Source: a virus
Virus record (IMG/VR): IMGVR_UViG_3300027788_000004
Location: 62,001-126,000 of that record
Direction: 5' to 3' (one strand)
DNA length: 64,000 bases
Below are positions 3,233 through 52,032 of the stretch, one piece after another; positions within the stretch are counted from its first letter, which is position 1; every line of letters starts with the position of its first letter. The position numbers were made by a program, and so were the translations under genes. The notes under the pieces were generated by a model, which was not told the DNA's origin, did not search any database, and saw nothing but the letters and a program-made list of their open reading frames with translations.

Positions 3233-3979
3233 ATGAATTTAGAAATCACAAAAATTTACCCAGCTCCACTTACAGCAATGGTTAAAAAGCTATTGTTAAT
3301 GGACAGTGCAATTTATCTTAATTTAACGGAAGATAGAATTTTTTCGAACTCATACTTACCTACAAAGGATGTGGCTAAGATAGTTACTGTCGATACTAAA
3401 GATATTATGGAATTTGAAAATTCTGATGATATTGGTACAAACATTAAAGTTTCGTTTTTCGCAGGACAGAAACTAATTGATTGTCTTAAGTATTTTGATA
3501 TTCATAATCTTACTGGTACATTACATTGTTACGAAGAAGGCGACGAAAAATTTGCAGAAAAATTAGTTATTAGAGACCATTCATTAGAAATAACATTGCA
3601 TTGTGCGGATGTTTCTTTAGGATTTACTACAATGTCCGATGCACAAGTAACGGCAGCATTCGGTAAAGATAACGAAGTTTATTCTTTCGGTCTTTCACAA
3701 GAAACTTTAATTAAATTAAATAACCTTATCACACTTGATAAAAATGAATTATTCAGAATTTATTCAGATGATCGAGGAATCCATGTTGCTGGTGATACAT
3801 ATGATATTGTAATCGATGATACACACACAGAAAAACACGAAGAAGTTACTTTATTCAAAAGCTTCTTTTCTAGAATTGCAAAGGAATCATATAACGTTTC
3901 AGTATGTCAAAATAAATTAGTTTTAGATTCGGAAGATTCTAACACAAATATCGCACTGAATTTAGCAATCAAAGCTTAA
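3233..3979 (+). CDS. 45: Sliding clamp-like protein (gp45-like)
   Basis: Probable DNA polymerase processivity clamp. The 248-residue protein has alternating beta strands and short helices, consistent with a two-domain PCNA/gp45-type subunit; T4 gp45 is 228 residues. I see no diagnostic motif, so the call rests on size, fold pattern and position: it lies directly between the two DNA polymerase genes and its stop codon overlaps the start of the second half (TAATG at 3977-3981), indicating translational coupling. Clamp, clamp loader and polymerase genes are also neighbours in T4, and a gp44-like loader is present at 28326. The second polymerase half ends in a clamp-binding-like tail, which supports a clamp partner. 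An ECF-type promoter precedes it. Confidence 0.6.
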   Translation: MNLEITKIYPAPLTAMVKKLLLMDSAIYLNLTEDRIFSNSYLPTKDVAKIVTVDTKDIMEFENSDDIGTNIKVSFFAGQKLIDCLKYFDIHNLTGTLHCYEEGDEKFAEKLVIRDHSLEITLHCADVSLGFTTMSDAQVTAAFGKDNEVYSFGLSQETLIKLNNLITLDKNELFRIYSDDRGIHVAGDTYDIVIDDTHTEKHEEVTLFKSFFSRIAKESYNVSVCQNKLVLDSEDSNTNIALNLAIKA

Positions 3980-5112
3980 TGACTGAATTACAAACTAAAA
4001 TAATTGCACTAGAAAAGGAAAGTCTCCAAAACTATAATTTAGAACAAGCAATAAAGCTTTGTATTAACTCTATTTATGGTGCGTTTGCAAACGATTATTT
4101 TCATTTTAGAAGTACTGATATAGCAGAAACAGTTACGTTACAAGGTCAAGATGCTATTAAATATACAGAAAGGGCGGTTGAAAAGTATTTCAAAGAACAT
4201 TGGCATAAAGATAAAAAATTACACGAAGCTTTAGGTGTAACATGTGAAGTTACTCCGTTAACATCTCATGTATGGAAATATACAGATACGGATTCAGGAT
4301 ATATTATCTTTGAAGAAGTTATGGAATCTTGTCAATGGGAAGGTACGGTTACAGACTTTATTCTAAAAATGAATAAATTAAGGTTATCATCGTACATTCA
4401 GATGACCTTGCAAAAATACGCAGATTCTTATAATTCCGAAAACTTCTTAGATTTTGAATTAGAAACAATTGCAAATAACGCTATTTGGGTTGCAAAAAAG
4501 AAATATGTACAAAACATTGTTTGGAAAGATGGTAAAGAATATGAACCACTTTCTTACATATCTACAAAAGGTTTAGAAATTATACAATCATCTACTCCAG
4601 CATTTTGTAGAGATAAACTTACGGATCTAGTTAAGTTCTTATTTTCTAAAGATAAATTAGATAACGATGCAATTAGTGGACTAACTCAAGTACTTAAAGA
4701 TATTAAAACACAATTCAAACTAGCTGATATTGAACAAATATCTTCTAATCGTAGAATAGGTGATTATAATAAATTTATGATTAATGATACTAATGAATTT
4801 GAAATTGCTAAAGGATGTCCTATTCATGTTAGAGCTGGTGGTTACCATAATTACTTAGTAAATAATTCTAAACATAAAAATAATTATGATCTAACAAAAT
4901 CTAGCGACAAGATTCGATGGTACTATGCTAAAGATCAATTTTGCGATGTGTTCGGTTATTTACCTGGAGCATATCCATATCAACTCGCTCCTAAAATTGA
5001 TGTTGAGAGACAATTTGAAATGTTTATATTAGAACCATTAAACAGAATTATAATACCTTCAGGAATGCCAAGATTAAATAGAAGCTTAGCATATACACTA
5101 TCACTATTCTAA
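3979..5112 (+). CDS. 43B: Family B DNA polymerase, C-terminal half (gp43B-like; fingers, motifs B and C, thumb)
   Basis: Completes the polymerase begun at the left edge. Motif B (K26 to N30-S-I-Y-G34) and motif C (YTDTDS, D103 and D105) supply the fingers and the second catalytic carboxylates; the remainder forms palm and thumb. The protein starts at a helix that in intact enzymes directly follows the motif A region, so the two genes together cover one polymerase with almost no missing segment. The last residues, SLAYTLSLF, resemble the C-terminal clamp-binding peptide of T4 gp43. The ATG overlaps the clamp stop codon. Split gene 43 is known in some T4-like phages such as Aeromonas phages 44RR and 25; here two unrelated genes separate the halves. 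Confidence 0.95.
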   Translation: MTELQTKIIALEKESLQNYNLEQAIKLCINSIYGAFANDYFHFRSTDIAETVTLQGQDAIKYTERAVEKYFKEHWHKDKKLHEALGVTCEVTPLTSHVWKYTDTDSGYIIFEEVMESCQWEGTVTDFILKMNKLRLSSYIQMTLQKYADSYNSENFLDFELETIANNAIWVAKKKYVQNIVWKDGKEYEPLSYISTKGLEIIQSSTPAFCRDKLTDLVKFLFSKDKLDNDAISGLTQVLKDIKTQFKLADIEQISSNRRIGDYNKFMINDTNEFEIAKGCPIHVRAGGYHNYLVNNSKHKNNYDLTKSSDKIRWYYAKDQFCDVFGYLPGAYPYQLAPKIDVERQFEMFILEPLNRIIIPSGMPRLNRSLAYTLSLF

Positions 5113-24907: not shown

Positions 24908-25383
24908 AAATAACAAGAAGTAAGGCTGGTAAAAATCCAACTAGACATGGTATTGTTTTACGTGGACTTAAACCAACTTATAAAGAGGTATTAAAGAAAC
25001 ATGAATTTATAAAGGACCATTGTAAAGATGATAATTTTGTACATCTTTTATTTAGTCTTATTGATAGAGAAAATATACAAAAAAATAAAAGCAAATACTT
25101 TATAGATCCTACTGATGGAGAAGTTAAAGATAGAAAAATTCTTATAGATGAAATAAAAATAGTTCCTTGGAAATGTTCTTATTGTGAATGTAAAATAAAA
25201 TCTAAAATGGAAGATTTTTCTACAAAGAATTTTACATGTAAAAAATGCTATAAGGCATACGTTAAAGATGAGAAAAAAATAAGTCAATTAGTTTTAGAAA
25301 ATTCAGTAGAATTTGCTGAACTTTGTAAAAGATTAATAAATAGAGATAGAAAAACATTCCTTAAATATATACAAAATAAATGA
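24904..25383 (+). CDS. Hypothetical protein with four-cysteine zinc-ribbon-like motif
   Basis: A 159-residue basic protein. Two CxxC pairs (CSYC and CKKC, about 22 residues apart around residues 98-120) suggest one zinc-ribbon knuckle pair, a nucleic-acid or protein-binding module. The start overlaps the upstream stop (ATGA) and its own stop overlaps the start of the ATP-grasp gene (AATGA), so these three genes are translationally coupled. The function is unknown; an adaptor or chaperone for one of the two packaged neighbours is possible. Confidence 0.75.
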   Translation: MKITRSKAGKNPTRHGIVLRGLKPTYKEVLKKHEFIKDHCKDDNFVHLLFSLIDRENIQKNKSKYFIDPTDGEVKDRKILIDEIKIVPWKCSYCECKIKSKMEDFSTKNFTCKKCYKAYVKDEKKISQLVLENSVEFAELCKRLINRDRKTFLKYIQNK

Positions 25384-26846
25384 AACACTTCGAAAAATAC
25401 CAAATGATAACAGAAGCCTTATCATTGAATAAAGTTCAAGTAGTTATCTTGTCTAATTTAGACTCGAAATCTACAACAGTAGACTCTATAAAATCTGAAT
25501 GCAATAAGCGAGGAATTCCTTGTAATGCATTAGATGTTAAAACATCTCATATAAAAGAATACGTAAATAAGAGAAACGATATTAAGATAGGCGATGCTAA
25601 AACAAAACCATTCGCAATTAATAGATTAAACACTGTTGTAATAGCAAGAAGAGGAGTAGTATCTACAACATACACTCAAAAATTATTACAAGATTTAGAA
25701 AAGGCAAACTTCTTTTGTGTAAATGGCCTTGAACCTACAATGATTTGTGAAAATAAAAATACAACTAATACTATATTAGAAGCTGCTGGATTACCAACAC
25801 CAAAAAACACAATCATTAGCGATGTCGAAGGAGTTGATTTAGCGCTTAAAACTATTGGTGGAAAATTTCCAGTTATTGTAAAACTTCTTTCAGGATCTCA
25901 AGGTATAGGAGTTTCTCAGGTAGATTCTTACGAATCGTTGGTTTCTGTATTACAAACTTTATGGAAAGCTAGCGGAAAGAATGAAGTACTCTTACAAGAA
26001 AAGGTACCTGCAGATGGTGATGTTAGAATCCAAGTATTATCTAGGAAATTCTTTAGTCCCGATGATGAATCTTCTGAAATAGTTGCAGCGATGAAAAGAA
26101 CTTCAGCTAAAAAAGATTTTAGAACTAATTATTCTATTGGTGGAGGCGTTAAAAAGATTAAGTTAACTAAAGAAATGGAAGAAATATCTAAAGGTGCCGC
26201 TAAAGCAGTTGACTGTGCATGGTGTGCAGTAGATTTAATTATAGACAAAGAAACTAAAAAACCATATATATTAGAAGTTAACGCTTCACCAGGAACTAAA
26301 GGTATTACAGAAGCAACTGGTATTAATGTTGTTGGAGAAGTTATGGACTATGTATTAAATAAAGATAATTGGACTTATCCAACTATCAATTGTGGTTATA
26401 GAGAATGTTTAACATTACCTGGAGTTGGAGAATTGGTGGTAAAGATGGATACCGGTAATGGTGCTAAAGGGATGGCATTTCATGGAGATAAAATTGAAGA
26501 AGATGGTAAATATCTTAATTGGGAAATTGGAGATAATAAATTCAGAGATAAAATAGTTGGATATTCAGAGCCTATGGATACTCATGGTGAGACAATGAAA
26601 AGACCGATAATAGAAAGGGATTTAGTATTTGCTGGAAAACTAGTTCCTAAAGTTCCTATTTCAATTGTAGATAGAACGGCTAAAAGCACACCAGTATTAG
26701 CAAATAGAAAATTCATGGATAGACTAGGTATTGTTGTGAGTCCTTCTAAAGCCTTTAAGGCTACTCAATTCACTGGAGAATTTGATTGGTCTAAATCTCA
26801 AGGTGATAAACACGGCGGAATAAATTTTGACACCAAAGAGAAATAA
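25380..26846 (+). CDS. RimK-like ATP-grasp ligase fused to a RimB/COG4067-type retropepsin-like domain, with capsid-targeting N-terminus
   Basis: Predicted ATP-dependent amino-acid (glutamate) ligase, the family of RimK that adds glutamate to ribosomal protein S6. Residues about 20-330 are ATP-grasp: RRG at 90-92, PVIVKLLSGSQGIGVSQ with the nucleotide Lys168, LLQEKVP, and the metal-binding D284, E299 and N301 (ILEVNASPG). Residues about 338-462 match the small retropepsin-like domain found next to RimK genes: KMDTGNGAKG (DTG 357-359), then R-P-I-IERD and the NRKFMDRLGIVVSPSKAF ending. The first 13 residues (MKHFEKYQMITEA) resemble the T4 capsid-targeting peptide with a cut after ITE12, so the enzyme may be packaged and injected, as T4 Alt is. 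The substrate is unknown. Confidence 0.88.
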   Translation: MKHFEKYQMITEALSLNKVQVVILSNLDSKSTTVDSIKSECNKRGIPCNALDVKTSHIKEYVNKRNDIKIGDAKTKPFAINRLNTVVIARRGVVSTTYTQKLLQDLEKANFFCVNGLEPTMICENKNTTNTILEAAGLPTPKNTIISDVEGVDLALKTIGGKFPVIVKLLSGSQGIGVSQVDSYESLVSVLQTLWKASGKNEVLLQEKVPADGDVRIQVLSRKFFSPDDESSEIVAAMKRTSAKKDFRTNYSIGGGVKKIKLTKEMEEISKGAAKAVDCAWCAVDLIIDKETKKPYILEVNASPGTKGITEATGINVVGEVMDYVLNKDNWTYPTINCGYRECLTLPGVGELVVKMDTGNGAKGMAFHGDKIEEDGKYLNWEIGDNKFRDKIVGYSEPMDTHGETMKRPIIERDLVFAGKLVPKVPISIVDRTAKSTPVLANRKFMDRLGIVVSPSKAFKATQFTGEFDWSKSQGDKHGGINFDTKEK

Positions 26847-47534: not shown

Positions 47535-48149
47535 ATGACATTAAAAACATTAGGATTAGAATTCGCCGAAACAAAATCAGAAAAGATTTACAACGATCTT
47601 TATCATCGAATTAAACCAGGATTAAAAAATTATATCAATCAAATAGTTAAAGATAATCAAGCATCCGATGATTTATTCTCTATGACAATGGCTATTGTAT
47701 ATAATAAAATAGAACAATATAAACCAGAATTTCATATATCTACTTGGATTTATCGTATAGCATACCATGAAGCTATCATGCACTTAAGGAGAAAAAAACG
47801 AGCAGCAACTACACCATTCTCCGTTTTCGATTCATATTATGATGGTGATAATTCAAGAGCATCCGAAACGTTAATTTTTAATAATACAGATCAAGAACCT
47901 TTTGAAGATGATTTTCTAACAAGAGAAGAAAAAGAAAAGGAACAAGAAATAGTTCAAATCGCAATTAAAGAAGCGATATCTAATCTAGATCCTTTATATA
48001 AAGAAATTGTAGAAGATCGTTTATTAAACGAAATGAAATATAACGCAATTTCTCTTAAACATAAATTACCTTTACATACAATTAAAAATAGAATTGCGAG
48101 AGGTAAACGAATTTTACAATCAGGACTTAAAAACTATCAGAATATATAA
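47535..48149 (+). CDS. ECF-type sigma factor with regions 2 and 4
   Basis: RNA polymerase specificity factor. Region 2: ASDDLFSMTMAIVYNKIEQY then FHISTWIYRIAYHEAIMHL and RRKKR, the canonical core-binding and -10-reading helices. Region 4: ISNLDPLYKEIVEDRL then YNAISLKHKLPLHTIKNRI and ARGKRIL, the helix-turn-helix that reads the -35. An acidic linker (about residues 100-140) separates them. Length 204 is normal for ECF sigmas. No anti-sigma gene follows. It is distinct from the gp55-like protein, which lacks region 4. The GAAAC-N16-CATATAAT elements in this window have ECF promoter architecture and are its obvious candidate targets. Confidence 0.9.
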   Translation: MTLKTLGLEFAETKSEKIYNDLYHRIKPGLKNYINQIVKDNQASDDLFSMTMAIVYNKIEQYKPEFHISTWIYRIAYHEAIMHLRRKKRAATTPFSVFDSYYDGDNSRASETLIFNNTDQEPFEDDFLTREEKEKEQEIVQIAIKEAISNLDPLYKEIVEDRLLNEMKYNAISLKHKLPLHTIKNRIARGKRILQSGLKNYQNI

Positions 48150-49428: not shown

Positions 49429-50064
49429 ATGAAGTACACATTTGGGTATATAAAACATAACAAAGAAATAAATGAATATCATTTAGGTGCGTGTTTAGAT
49501 AATTTAGACGGAGACTATTCTATAATAACAACATCAGATAAGAAATTTCCTGCAGAAAACTATAATGATATCTTAGAACAATGCACAACAGATTACTTAA
49601 TACTTTCCCATGAAGATGTAACATTACCAAAAGATTTCTTAAAAAAATTAGAAATAACTATTAAACATGTGCCAGACTTTGGTTGTTTAGGTATGGTTGG
49701 CGTAGATAATAATAGAAACTATCATTGGTCTCAAAGCGATAATTTATTTGAAGTTGATACTCTTGATTGTTGCTTCTTAGTAATAAATATGAAAAACTTA
49801 AATGGAGCAAAATTCGATACAGAATCGTTTGGTGAATATCATTTATATGTAGAAGATTTTTGTGCACAAATGAATAGAATCAATAAGAAAACTAACTACA
49901 CCATCGCAGTAAATGCAAGCGAAAAACCTCTTTATATGACTGATGATTTATCTTCAATGGGCCATCATAGTGCAACAGTAAAAGAACGTGGATACTGTTG
50001 GGGAAGATATCAAGAATTTAGAACCGTCTTAGAAAACAAATGGCCAAATATAAAAACTACATAA
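49429..50064 (+). CDS. Family 2-like glycosyltransferase (short)
   Basis: A 211-residue GT-A-type protein. It has SIITTSDKKF near the donor site, an acidic ILSHEDVTLP in place of the DxD motif, and FGCLGMVGVDNN typical of phage and bacterial GT2 relatives. The C-terminus has HHSATVKERGYCW. Donor and acceptor are unknown. It starts directly after the nuclease stop. It belongs to a cluster of sugar genes (49.4-54.3 kb). Confidence 0.7.
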   Translation: MKYTFGYIKHNKEINEYHLGACLDNLDGDYSIITTSDKKFPAENYNDILEQCTTDYLILSHEDVTLPKDFLKKLEITIKHVPDFGCLGMVGVDNNRNYHWSQSDNLFEVDTLDCCFLVINMKNLNGAKFDTESFGEYHLYVEDFCAQMNRINKKTNYTIAVNASEKPLYMTDDLSSMGHHSATVKERGYCWGRYQEFRTVLENKWPNIKTT

Positions 50065-50065
50065 A

Positions 50066-50371
50066 ATGACTTATAGACCACTTCCGTATTATCTAACAAT
50101 CAAAGAATCCAAAGTAGAAGGACTTGGCTTATTTACAAAAGATGATTGCACAATTGCAAATGGTGTTTTCTTAGGAACCACACATATTAAAAATGAAGAT
50201 TTTGAAAACGGATATATTAGAACTCCTTTAGGTGGATTCATAAATCACTCGGAAACTCCTAATTGCGAAAAAATAGAATCTACTGATACTGTTTCAATAA
50301 GGACTATTAAAAAAGTAAAGGCTAACGAAGAATTAACCTTAAAATATACATGGTATAATACAAACAAATAA
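50066..50371 (+). CDS. Minimal SET-domain protein (putative lysine methyltransferase)
   Basis: A 101-residue protein with the SET-fold signature: KESKVEGLGLFTKDD at residues 13-27 (SAM-side GxGLF motif), GGFINHSETPNCEK at 56-69 (NHS and PNC, the knot motif) and VKANEELTLKYTWY at 84-97 (E-E-L-T-x-x-Y, catalytic Tyr region). It lacks pre-SET, post-SET and iSET parts, which makes it close to the smallest possible enzyme. It sits between two glycosyltransferase genes, with 1 and 3 bases of spacing. A protein-methylating role is family knowledge; the target is unknown. Confidence 0.85.
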   Translation: MTYRPLPYYLTIKESKVEGLGLFTKDDCTIANGVFLGTTHIKNEDFENGYIRTPLGGFINHSETPNCEKIESTDTVSIRTIKKVKANEELTLKYTWYNTNK

Positions 50372-50374
50372 ATT

Positions 50375-51091
50375 ATGACAAGACATCTTGCACACGATAA
50401 AATTAAAGGTTATGAAGTTGATATGGTTATTATTAGCTGGGCTAAAACCGATGCATTAAGAAAGGTTACCGAAGATGGTATTCTATCTTGTATTGAATCT
50501 GATAAATTAGTTAAATTTAACTTTTTTGTAGTTGAAACAAATAAAGATGTTACTTATGATTTACCAAACACAGAAACAATCCACCCCGAAGTAAGTTATG
50601 GATATCATAGATACTTAAATATAGGAAGAAAGGCTGGTAATTCTAAATATGTTTGTTTATGTAATAACGATCTAACTTATGAAAATATATGGTCAACCGA
50701 AATAATGGACTTTATGGAATCTAGACCTGATATAAAATCTGCGAGTCCTTGGTGCCCACAAACTCAAGGATCTAATATAGAACATACTGACAAAGCTTAT
50801 GTAGGTTATCAAGTACGTGGAGAATTAGCTGGTTGGTGTATATTTCAACAACGAAGTATATATGAAACCATTGGAGATCTTGATGAGCGATTTGAATTTT
50901 GGTATTGTGATAATGATTATGGAAAGACTTTAGAATCTAAAAAAATACTACATGCACTAATCCCACCGTCAGTAGTTAATCATCATGCAGAAATGATAGG
51001 AGAAACTGGTAAAACATTAGACGAATCTTCTAAAACCGATATGACTATCGGTCAAACGGATGTATTTAACAAAAAATGGAATATACAATAA
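50375..51091 (+). CDS. Family 2 glycosyltransferase (WbbL/rhamnosyltransferase-like)
   Basis: A 238-residue GT2 protein. VDMVIISWAK starts the nucleotide-binding strand, CLCNNDLTYE is the DxD-type motif (NND), and GWCIFQQRSIYETIGDLDER then FEFWYCDNDYG is the acceptor-side motif that is well conserved in rhamnosyltransferase-like GT2 enzymes. It follows the SET gene after 3 bases. The neighbouring dTDP-glucose dehydratase suggests that a deoxysugar may be the donor; this is inference. Confidence 0.85.
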   Translation: MTRHLAHDKIKGYEVDMVIISWAKTDALRKVTEDGILSCIESDKLVKFNFFVVETNKDVTYDLPNTETIHPEVSYGYHRYLNIGRKAGNSKYVCLCNNDLTYENIWSTEIMDFMESRPDIKSASPWCPQTQGSNIEHTDKAYVGYQVRGELAGWCIFQQRSIYETIGDLDERFEFWYCDNDYGKTLESKKILHALIPPSVVNHHAEMIGETGKTLDESSKTDMTIGQTDVFNKKWNIQ

Positions 51092-51141: not shown

Positions 51142-52032
51142 ATGGGTATAACAGATACTACAAAAATCTTAGTTACAGGTGGAGCTGGTTATGTTGGTTC
51201 TAATCTTATAAAAACATTACTTGACACCGATCCAGATATACGTATAATATCTTTTGATAACTATTCTACTGGATTGCGTTCTAATCATATCGATAACCCA
51301 AAGATAACATATCTAGAAGGTGATTGTAAAGATTTACGTAGTATGAGAATTCTTAGAGATGTTAAAACCGTATTTCATTTTGGTGAATACTCTAGAATAA
51401 CTACATCATTTGAAGATATCAAAACGGTTGCAGATTCGAATATGCAAGGAACGTTTAATGTTCTTGAATTTTGTAGAGAAAACAAATGTAATCTTATTTA
51501 TTCTGCATCAAGCTCAAAATTTGGTGATGGTAATGAAAACCTTTCTCCATACGCTTGGATGAAATCAAAGAATGTAGAACTAATAAAAAATTATAATACA
51601 TGGTTTGATCTTCAATATGATATAGCATACTTCTATAATGTATATGGAAAGAACCATATAAAAACAGGAAAGTACGCAACGGTAATTGGTATATTTGAAA
51701 ACGCAGTAGAAAATAATGAACCAATTCCTATCATCGGAGATGGAGATCAAGAACGAGACTTTACTCATGTTGATGATATTACATTAGGATTGTACAAGAT
51801 CTATAAAAAAAGTTTACGGAACAAAGAATACTTTTTAGGAACCGGAGAGAATCATACGATACTCAAGGTTGCACTAATGTTTTCTAATAATATAAAACAC
51901 TTACCGAAAAAGGTTGGTGAGAGAAAATCATCTATCATACCATCAAATAAAAATAATCAAAAAATTGGATGGAAAAGCCAAATAAAACTAAAAGAATATA
52001 TAAAACAATTGAAAGTGAGTGAAACTTTCTAA
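51142..52032 (+). CDS. NAD-dependent sugar-nucleotide epimerase/dehydratase (GalE-like SDR)
   Basis: Extended short-chain dehydrogenase. TGGAGYVGSNL is the Rossmann dinucleotide motif, YSASSSKFGDG holds the catalytic Ser/Thr position, and YAWMK is the YxxxK active site. GDGDQERDFTHVDDI is the conserved sugar-nucleotide-binding block. Length 296. It probably changes a UDP- or GDP-sugar for the neighbouring glycosyltransferases. The exact reaction (epimerase or dehydratase) cannot be fixed from these motifs. Confidence 0.88.
   Translation: MGITDTTKILVTGGAGYVGSNLIKTLLDTDPDIRIISFDNYSTGLRSNHIDNPKITYLEGDCKDLRSMRILRDVKTVFHFGEYSRITTSFEDIKTVADSNMQGTFNVLEFCRENKCNLIYSASSSKFGDGNENLSPYAWMKSKNVELIKNYNTWFDLQYDIAYFYNVYGKNHIKTGKYATVIGIFENAVENNEPIPIIGDGDQERDFTHVDDITLGLYKIYKKSLRNKEYFLGTGENHTILKVALMFSNNIKHLPKKVGERKSSIIPSNKNNQKIGWKSQIKLKEYIKQLKVSETF

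Follow-up and report, generated by a model that had tools for sequence, protein, structure and literature searches.

A compact SET-domain protein of marine phages, predicted to be a minimal protein lysine methyltransferase

A short open reading frame of a phage, squeezed between two putative glycosyltransferase genes, raises the question whether it encodes a working protein lysine methyltransferase of the SET type, and whether the sugar-related genes around it tell what such an enzyme would modify. The locus (Table 1) lies in a stretch of 64,000 nucleotides, hereafter the window, which comprises bases 62001-126000 of a virus record of 132,786 bases. Among the phage genes of the window are those for a portal protein, a T4-type major head protein, a tail sheath, a tail tube, a T4-type baseplate protein, a UvsX-like recombinase and a ribonucleotide reductase, with the head protein being closest to those of a 462-kb phage and of the Prevotella Lak phages. 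Judged by this tailed-phage gene content, the host is a bacterium. The virion gene block also includes a 488-residue RimK-like ATP-grasp protein (25380-26846, + strand; PF08443, E=2e-30; PHROG 2599, ribosomal protein S6 glutaminyl transferase-like), possibly a second protein-modifying enzyme of this phage. Two separate reading frames (440-1318 and 3979-5112, both + strand) contain family B DNA polymerase segments; a ribonucleotide reductase frame and another one lie between them, and the pair looks like a split polymerase gene.

Table 1. Features of the SET locus; coordinates count from the first base of the window, residues from the start of the SET protein
Feature	Coordinates	Strand	Description
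Upstream neighbour	49429..50064	+	glycosyltransferase-2-like, 211 aa; PF13712 E=2.4e-8; ends 1 base before the SET reading frame
SET gene	50066..50371	+	SET protein of 101 aa with a single domain; predicted to be a SAM-dependent protein lysine methyltransferase; member of PHROG 28741
GLGLF, residues 19-23	50120..50134	+	SAM-binding GxG loop of SET domains (predicted, by motif)
LGTTH, residues 36-40	50171..50185	+	family-specific; G37 and H40 invariant
RTPLGGFINHSETPN, residues 52-66	50219..50263	+	SET motif III; RTP and E63 family-specific, NHSxxPN canonical
EELTLKY, residues 88-94	50327..50347	+	SET motif IV; presumed catalytic Tyr94; Leu92 at Phe/Tyr-switch position
Downstream neighbour	50375..51091	+	glycosyltransferase-like, 238 aa; PHROG 22332 E=2.3e-17; starts 3 bases after the SET reading frame
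NAD-dependent sugar-nucleotide epimerase/dehydratase	51142..52032	+	296 aa; PF01370 E=3.7e-35

The 101-residue protein matches the Pfam SET family (PF00856) with an E-value of 4.2e-9 and 37.2 bits, compared to a curated cut-off of 22.4, and its residues 1-98 align with positions 1-97 of the 100 positions of PHROG 28741 (E=4.5e-24), a family annotated as "unknown function". The sole match in a scan against NCBIfam was a spurious, weak one to GatD, far under the cut-off. The ATG start is backed by the N-terminus M-x-Y-K/R-P-L-P, which is common to the family. An earlier, sequence-only reading of this DNA had described three SET motifs in the right order within a protein consisting of little more than the SET core, and both statements hold: GLGLF, FINHSETPNCE (residues 58-68) and EELTLKY follow one another as described, the core starts at about residue 9 and the chain ends 7 residues past Tyr94, which leaves no room for pre-SET or post-SET segments.

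Across 62 diverse relatives 18 residues are invariant, namely Y3, L6, S15, G21, G37 and H40, then R52, T53, P54, G56, G57, F58, N60, H61, S62 and N66 in the RTPLGGFINHSETPN segment, and finally E89 and Y94; G19 is conserved in at least 90%. In profile alignments GLGLF coincides with GLGLYA of KMT2D and KMT2C, and EELTLKY with GEELTYDY of KMT2D, with Y94 opposite the last Tyr of ELTYDY and L92 opposite the Tyr two positions earlier. Following established SET enzymology, we take these two positions to be the catalytic tyrosine and the Phe/Tyr switch, respectively, and a Leu at the switch suggests that more than one methyl group could be added per lysine. Marks of the family itself are the N-terminal Y-K/R-P-L-P, LGxTH, the near-absent C-terminal flank and RTPLGGFINHSE, which occupies the place of the Cys that follows NHS in many SET domains. 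The median dN/dS over 290 pairs of family members is 0.09, and purifying selection on the family is thus strong. Together with the Pfam score, the PHROG match and the 18 invariant columns, this value places the SET assignment beyond chance.

Structure prediction, which the sequence-only reading had proposed as a check that another fold would speak against, returned a SET fold. The AF2 model has a pLDDT of 92.1 and a pTM of 0.80, with the last residues being poorly modelled, and structure searches with it (Foldseek, VIA-align) returned SET enzymes; each of the 50 VIA-align rows listed is a SET/PR-domain protein, with Z-scores of 10.0-11.3. The top match is vSET (Z 11.3, rmsd 2.4 over 88 residues, 23% identity), with which MLL1 ties (Z 11.3, rmsd 2.9 over 92 residues). 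A profile built from the 62 relatives matched KMT2D (5e-10), KMT2-type SET domains and vSET (1n3j; 1e-7) in the PDB, with alignments spanning almost the entire domain. The assessment of the SAM pocket relies on the motifs and the fold match.

The lysine methyltransferase activity that had been considered likely from the letters alone is supported, as a prediction, by the Pfam match, the motifs, the profile, the AF2 model and the fold matches. We put the probability that the gene product is an active, minimal SAM-dependent protein lysine methyltransferase at roughly 0.78. Such an enzyme would use SAM to methylate a lysine side chain in another protein, with the GxG and NH motifs holding the cofactor and Tyr94 presumably being the catalytic tyrosine; with Leu instead of Tyr at the switch it may methylate multiply, and it may dimerise as vSET does. 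A counter-point is the C-terminal flank, which in larger SET enzymes helps to cover SAM and to close the lysine channel. It is nearly absent here and would have to be supplied by a partner, a dimer or the substrate. Many SET enzymes furthermore have a tyrosine two positions before the motif glycine (Y-x-G), and in the 62 relatives the residue two before G37 is not conserved as an aromatic one. Both features would fit a SET fold that has no methyltransferase activity and serves as a binding protein or inhibitor. This appears unlikely, as these diverse sequences keep Tyr94, the GxG loop and NHSxxPN without exception or for the most part, which would not be expected for a dead enzyme.

If the product is an active methyltransferase, its neighbours might indicate the substrate. 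The earlier claim that the gene stands between two glycosyltransferase genes with almost no spacing is borne out by gaps of 1 and 3 bases and by profile matches on both sides, and the downstream product shares 28-31% identity with annotated glycosyltransferases of Gordonia phages. The glycosylation island itself is short and also contains genes for a sigma factor and an exonuclease as well as unknown genes. The sigma factor is a phage sigma-70-like protein with regions 2 and 4 (47535-48149, + strand), encoded shortly upstream of the glycosyltransferase-SET cassette. With all three cassette genes on the same strand, the SET protein could work within this sugar or glycan cassette, for example by methylating a glycosyltransferase or a glycosylated acceptor protein, and one group of relatives (L002/L003) does have a GT25-like glycosyltransferase gene directly upstream.

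The neighbourhoods of the relatives make this function quite improbable. When 165 phage and viral loci were condensed to 47 groups at 85% SET similarity, with the window counted in and a range of two genes, a glycosyltransferase neighbour was identified in the window and in just 1 of the 46 other groups; this count used a GT25-like reference alone, and the other identified neighbours were otherwise not glycosyltransferases. In L001, the window's sister in the tree (support 97/86), the place of such a neighbour is taken by PKD-like, type IX-signal and PEP-utilising genes. A glycosylation context conserved across the family was rejected on these neighbour counts; the context is therefore less informative than the sequence-only reading had assumed, and the glycosylation link is probably local. 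The PKD-like and type IX secretion domains near L001 hint at Bacteroidota as hosts of both L001 and the window phage. The tree comprises 84 sequences and 102 columns and has many open forks; used from it were the pairing of the window with L001, a single clade of loci next to gp25 and gp6, and the mixing of cellular and viral rows.

Nor is a SET gene exceptional in a phage, as had been supposed. A scan of IMG/VR with the window protein yielded at least 576 confirmed relatives, and a scan with a cyanophage member yielded 251, counted separately and possibly overlapping with the former. Six phage records matched, from the cyanophages P-SSM7 (two) and P-RSM6 (two), the Pelagibacter phage Kolga and the marine virus AG-345-P14. 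The proteins of the three isolates (PSSM7_204, CPXG_00131 and gp27 of Kolga) are annotated as "hypothetical protein"; for some other SET proteins of phages, UniProt already uses the SET name. A search of plasmids for the family gave no match. Searches of the open PMC literature yielded no article on SET proteins of phages, and such an absence is weak evidence. The window protein is thus a member of a compact phage SET subfamily and not something peculiar to a single glycosylation island.

Relatives are also found in cells. A strict pattern search of 84,980 species genomes gave 24 loci, all from MAGs or uncultured single-cell type records, part of which may be phage contigs, while at least some look chromosomal. 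A SAR86 locus lies near carboxyltransferase and glyoxalase genes, and a Porticoccaceae locus adjoins FabF-like and redoxin genes. In three Bacteroidota MAGs (L166, L167 and L168; SET at 4659, 3768 and 5001) the gene is part of an arginine operon in the order argG-argC-SET-proC-argD-argF'. The homologues between argC and proC share 56-58% identity, similar length and the same motifs with the window protein but, unlike the window gene, sit in a bacterial biosynthesis operon. Sampling of 299 genomes from the family to which L168 belongs gave a match in 16. Eleven of these 16 carriers (L191-L201) form a distinct flavobacterial chromosomal clade of proteins of ~120 aa with a longer C-terminus, in which NHHxxPN replaces NHSxxPN and a C-terminal NPxWE tail is for the most part conserved; the neighbouring genes differ, with an acyl-CoA thioesterase in several. 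Throughout the phylum of L168, SET-profile matches, mostly distant ones, occur in 92 of 395 sampled genomes. The view that SET proteins are mainly eukaryotic and often effectors in bacteria does not fit this number, nor the nearest cellular relatives, which look like ordinary chromosomal genes. Acquisition from a eukaryote was considered and set aside: the nearest sequences found, in a search that excluded eukaryotic genomes, are from phages and marine bacteria, and bacterial SET genes are common. A eukaryotic origin is thus not indicated by these sequences. A mobile single-domain SET methyltransferase, as predicted from sequence and model, is well supported, and the subfamily would move between marine phages as well as between phages and bacterial chromosomes.

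What the predicted enzyme would modify can be narrowed tentatively. The baseplate wedge genes gp25 and gp6 lie within two genes of SET in 15 of the 47 groups, which are T4-like marine phages. Further neighbours in this range are TerL (3 groups), portal (2), TerS (2), DNA polymerase (2), clamp loader (1) and the GT25-like glycosyltransferase (1), and the TerL, portal and TerS loci add 5 groups to those with gp25-gp6. A late phage protein, of the virion or its assembly, is weakly favoured as substrate because 20 of 47 groups have a baseplate, terminase or portal gene within two genes and because the SET gene of the window follows the tail/baseplate block; we regard this assignment as a tentative one. 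The linkage to gp25-gp6 may be inherited synteny and not functional coupling, since it is concentrated in one clade of the tree. As the SET gene of P-SSM7, within that same clade, adjoins nrdB, its position appears inherited yet movable. Contexts differ even among the isolates (nrdB in P-SSM7, gp25-gp6 in P-RSM6, an AAA gene in Kolga), and members that have nrdB, a DNA polymerase gene or a clamp loader gene as a neighbour speak against a link to the virion.

These contexts, to which an anti-restriction gene can be added, and the very different hosts of the phages would suit a conserved host protein of translation, transcription or metabolism as target, with methylation serving host takeover or counter-defence. 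That Bacteroidota, Porticoccaceae and SAR86 have close relatives on their chromosomes suggests that the substrate is also present in cells, and the position within the arginine operon in three MAGs points the same way. Against such a target, there is no conserved linkage to a known takeover gene, the sequence indicates no substrate, and the gene is uncommon on chromosomes, with 16 carriers among the 299 genomes sampled from a single flavobacterial family. A host protein is accordingly a possible substrate, almost as likely as a late phage protein. With similar reserve it may be proposed that a widespread marine phage family spanning cyanophages, pelagiphages and phages with other marine bacterial hosts writes lysine methylation on baseplate or packaging proteins of the virion, or on a conserved host protein, during infection.

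If the enzyme is active, protein lysine methylation would be a common and hitherto overlooked activity of marine phages. As the isolated phages P-SSM7, P-RSM6 and Kolga carry the gene under the name "hypothetical protein", this can be tested at once. The very small domain would also be useful for asking what a minimal methyltransferase core needs.

Among known systems, the chlamydial and Burkholderia SET proteins are prokaryotic SET domains like that of the window, a likeness drawn by description alone. Bacterial SET proteins of this type act on histones or on chlamydial histone-like proteins (PMC3980110, PMC10117894). Much closer are the PHROG 28741 members of P-SSM7, P-RSM6 and Kolga, with 47-48% identity to the window protein. 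To our knowledge, histone H3 is not to be expected in the bacterial host of the window phage. It is histone H3K27 of a eukaryotic host that is targeted by vSET (PMC3089700), the A612L protein of Paramecium bursaria chlorella virus 1, which is likewise a virus-encoded, stand-alone minimal SET protein (119 aa in the PDB entry) of the same fold. The window protein shares 23% identity with vSET, from which it differs by being shorter at the C-terminus and by its own RTPLGGFINHSE and LGxTH signatures.
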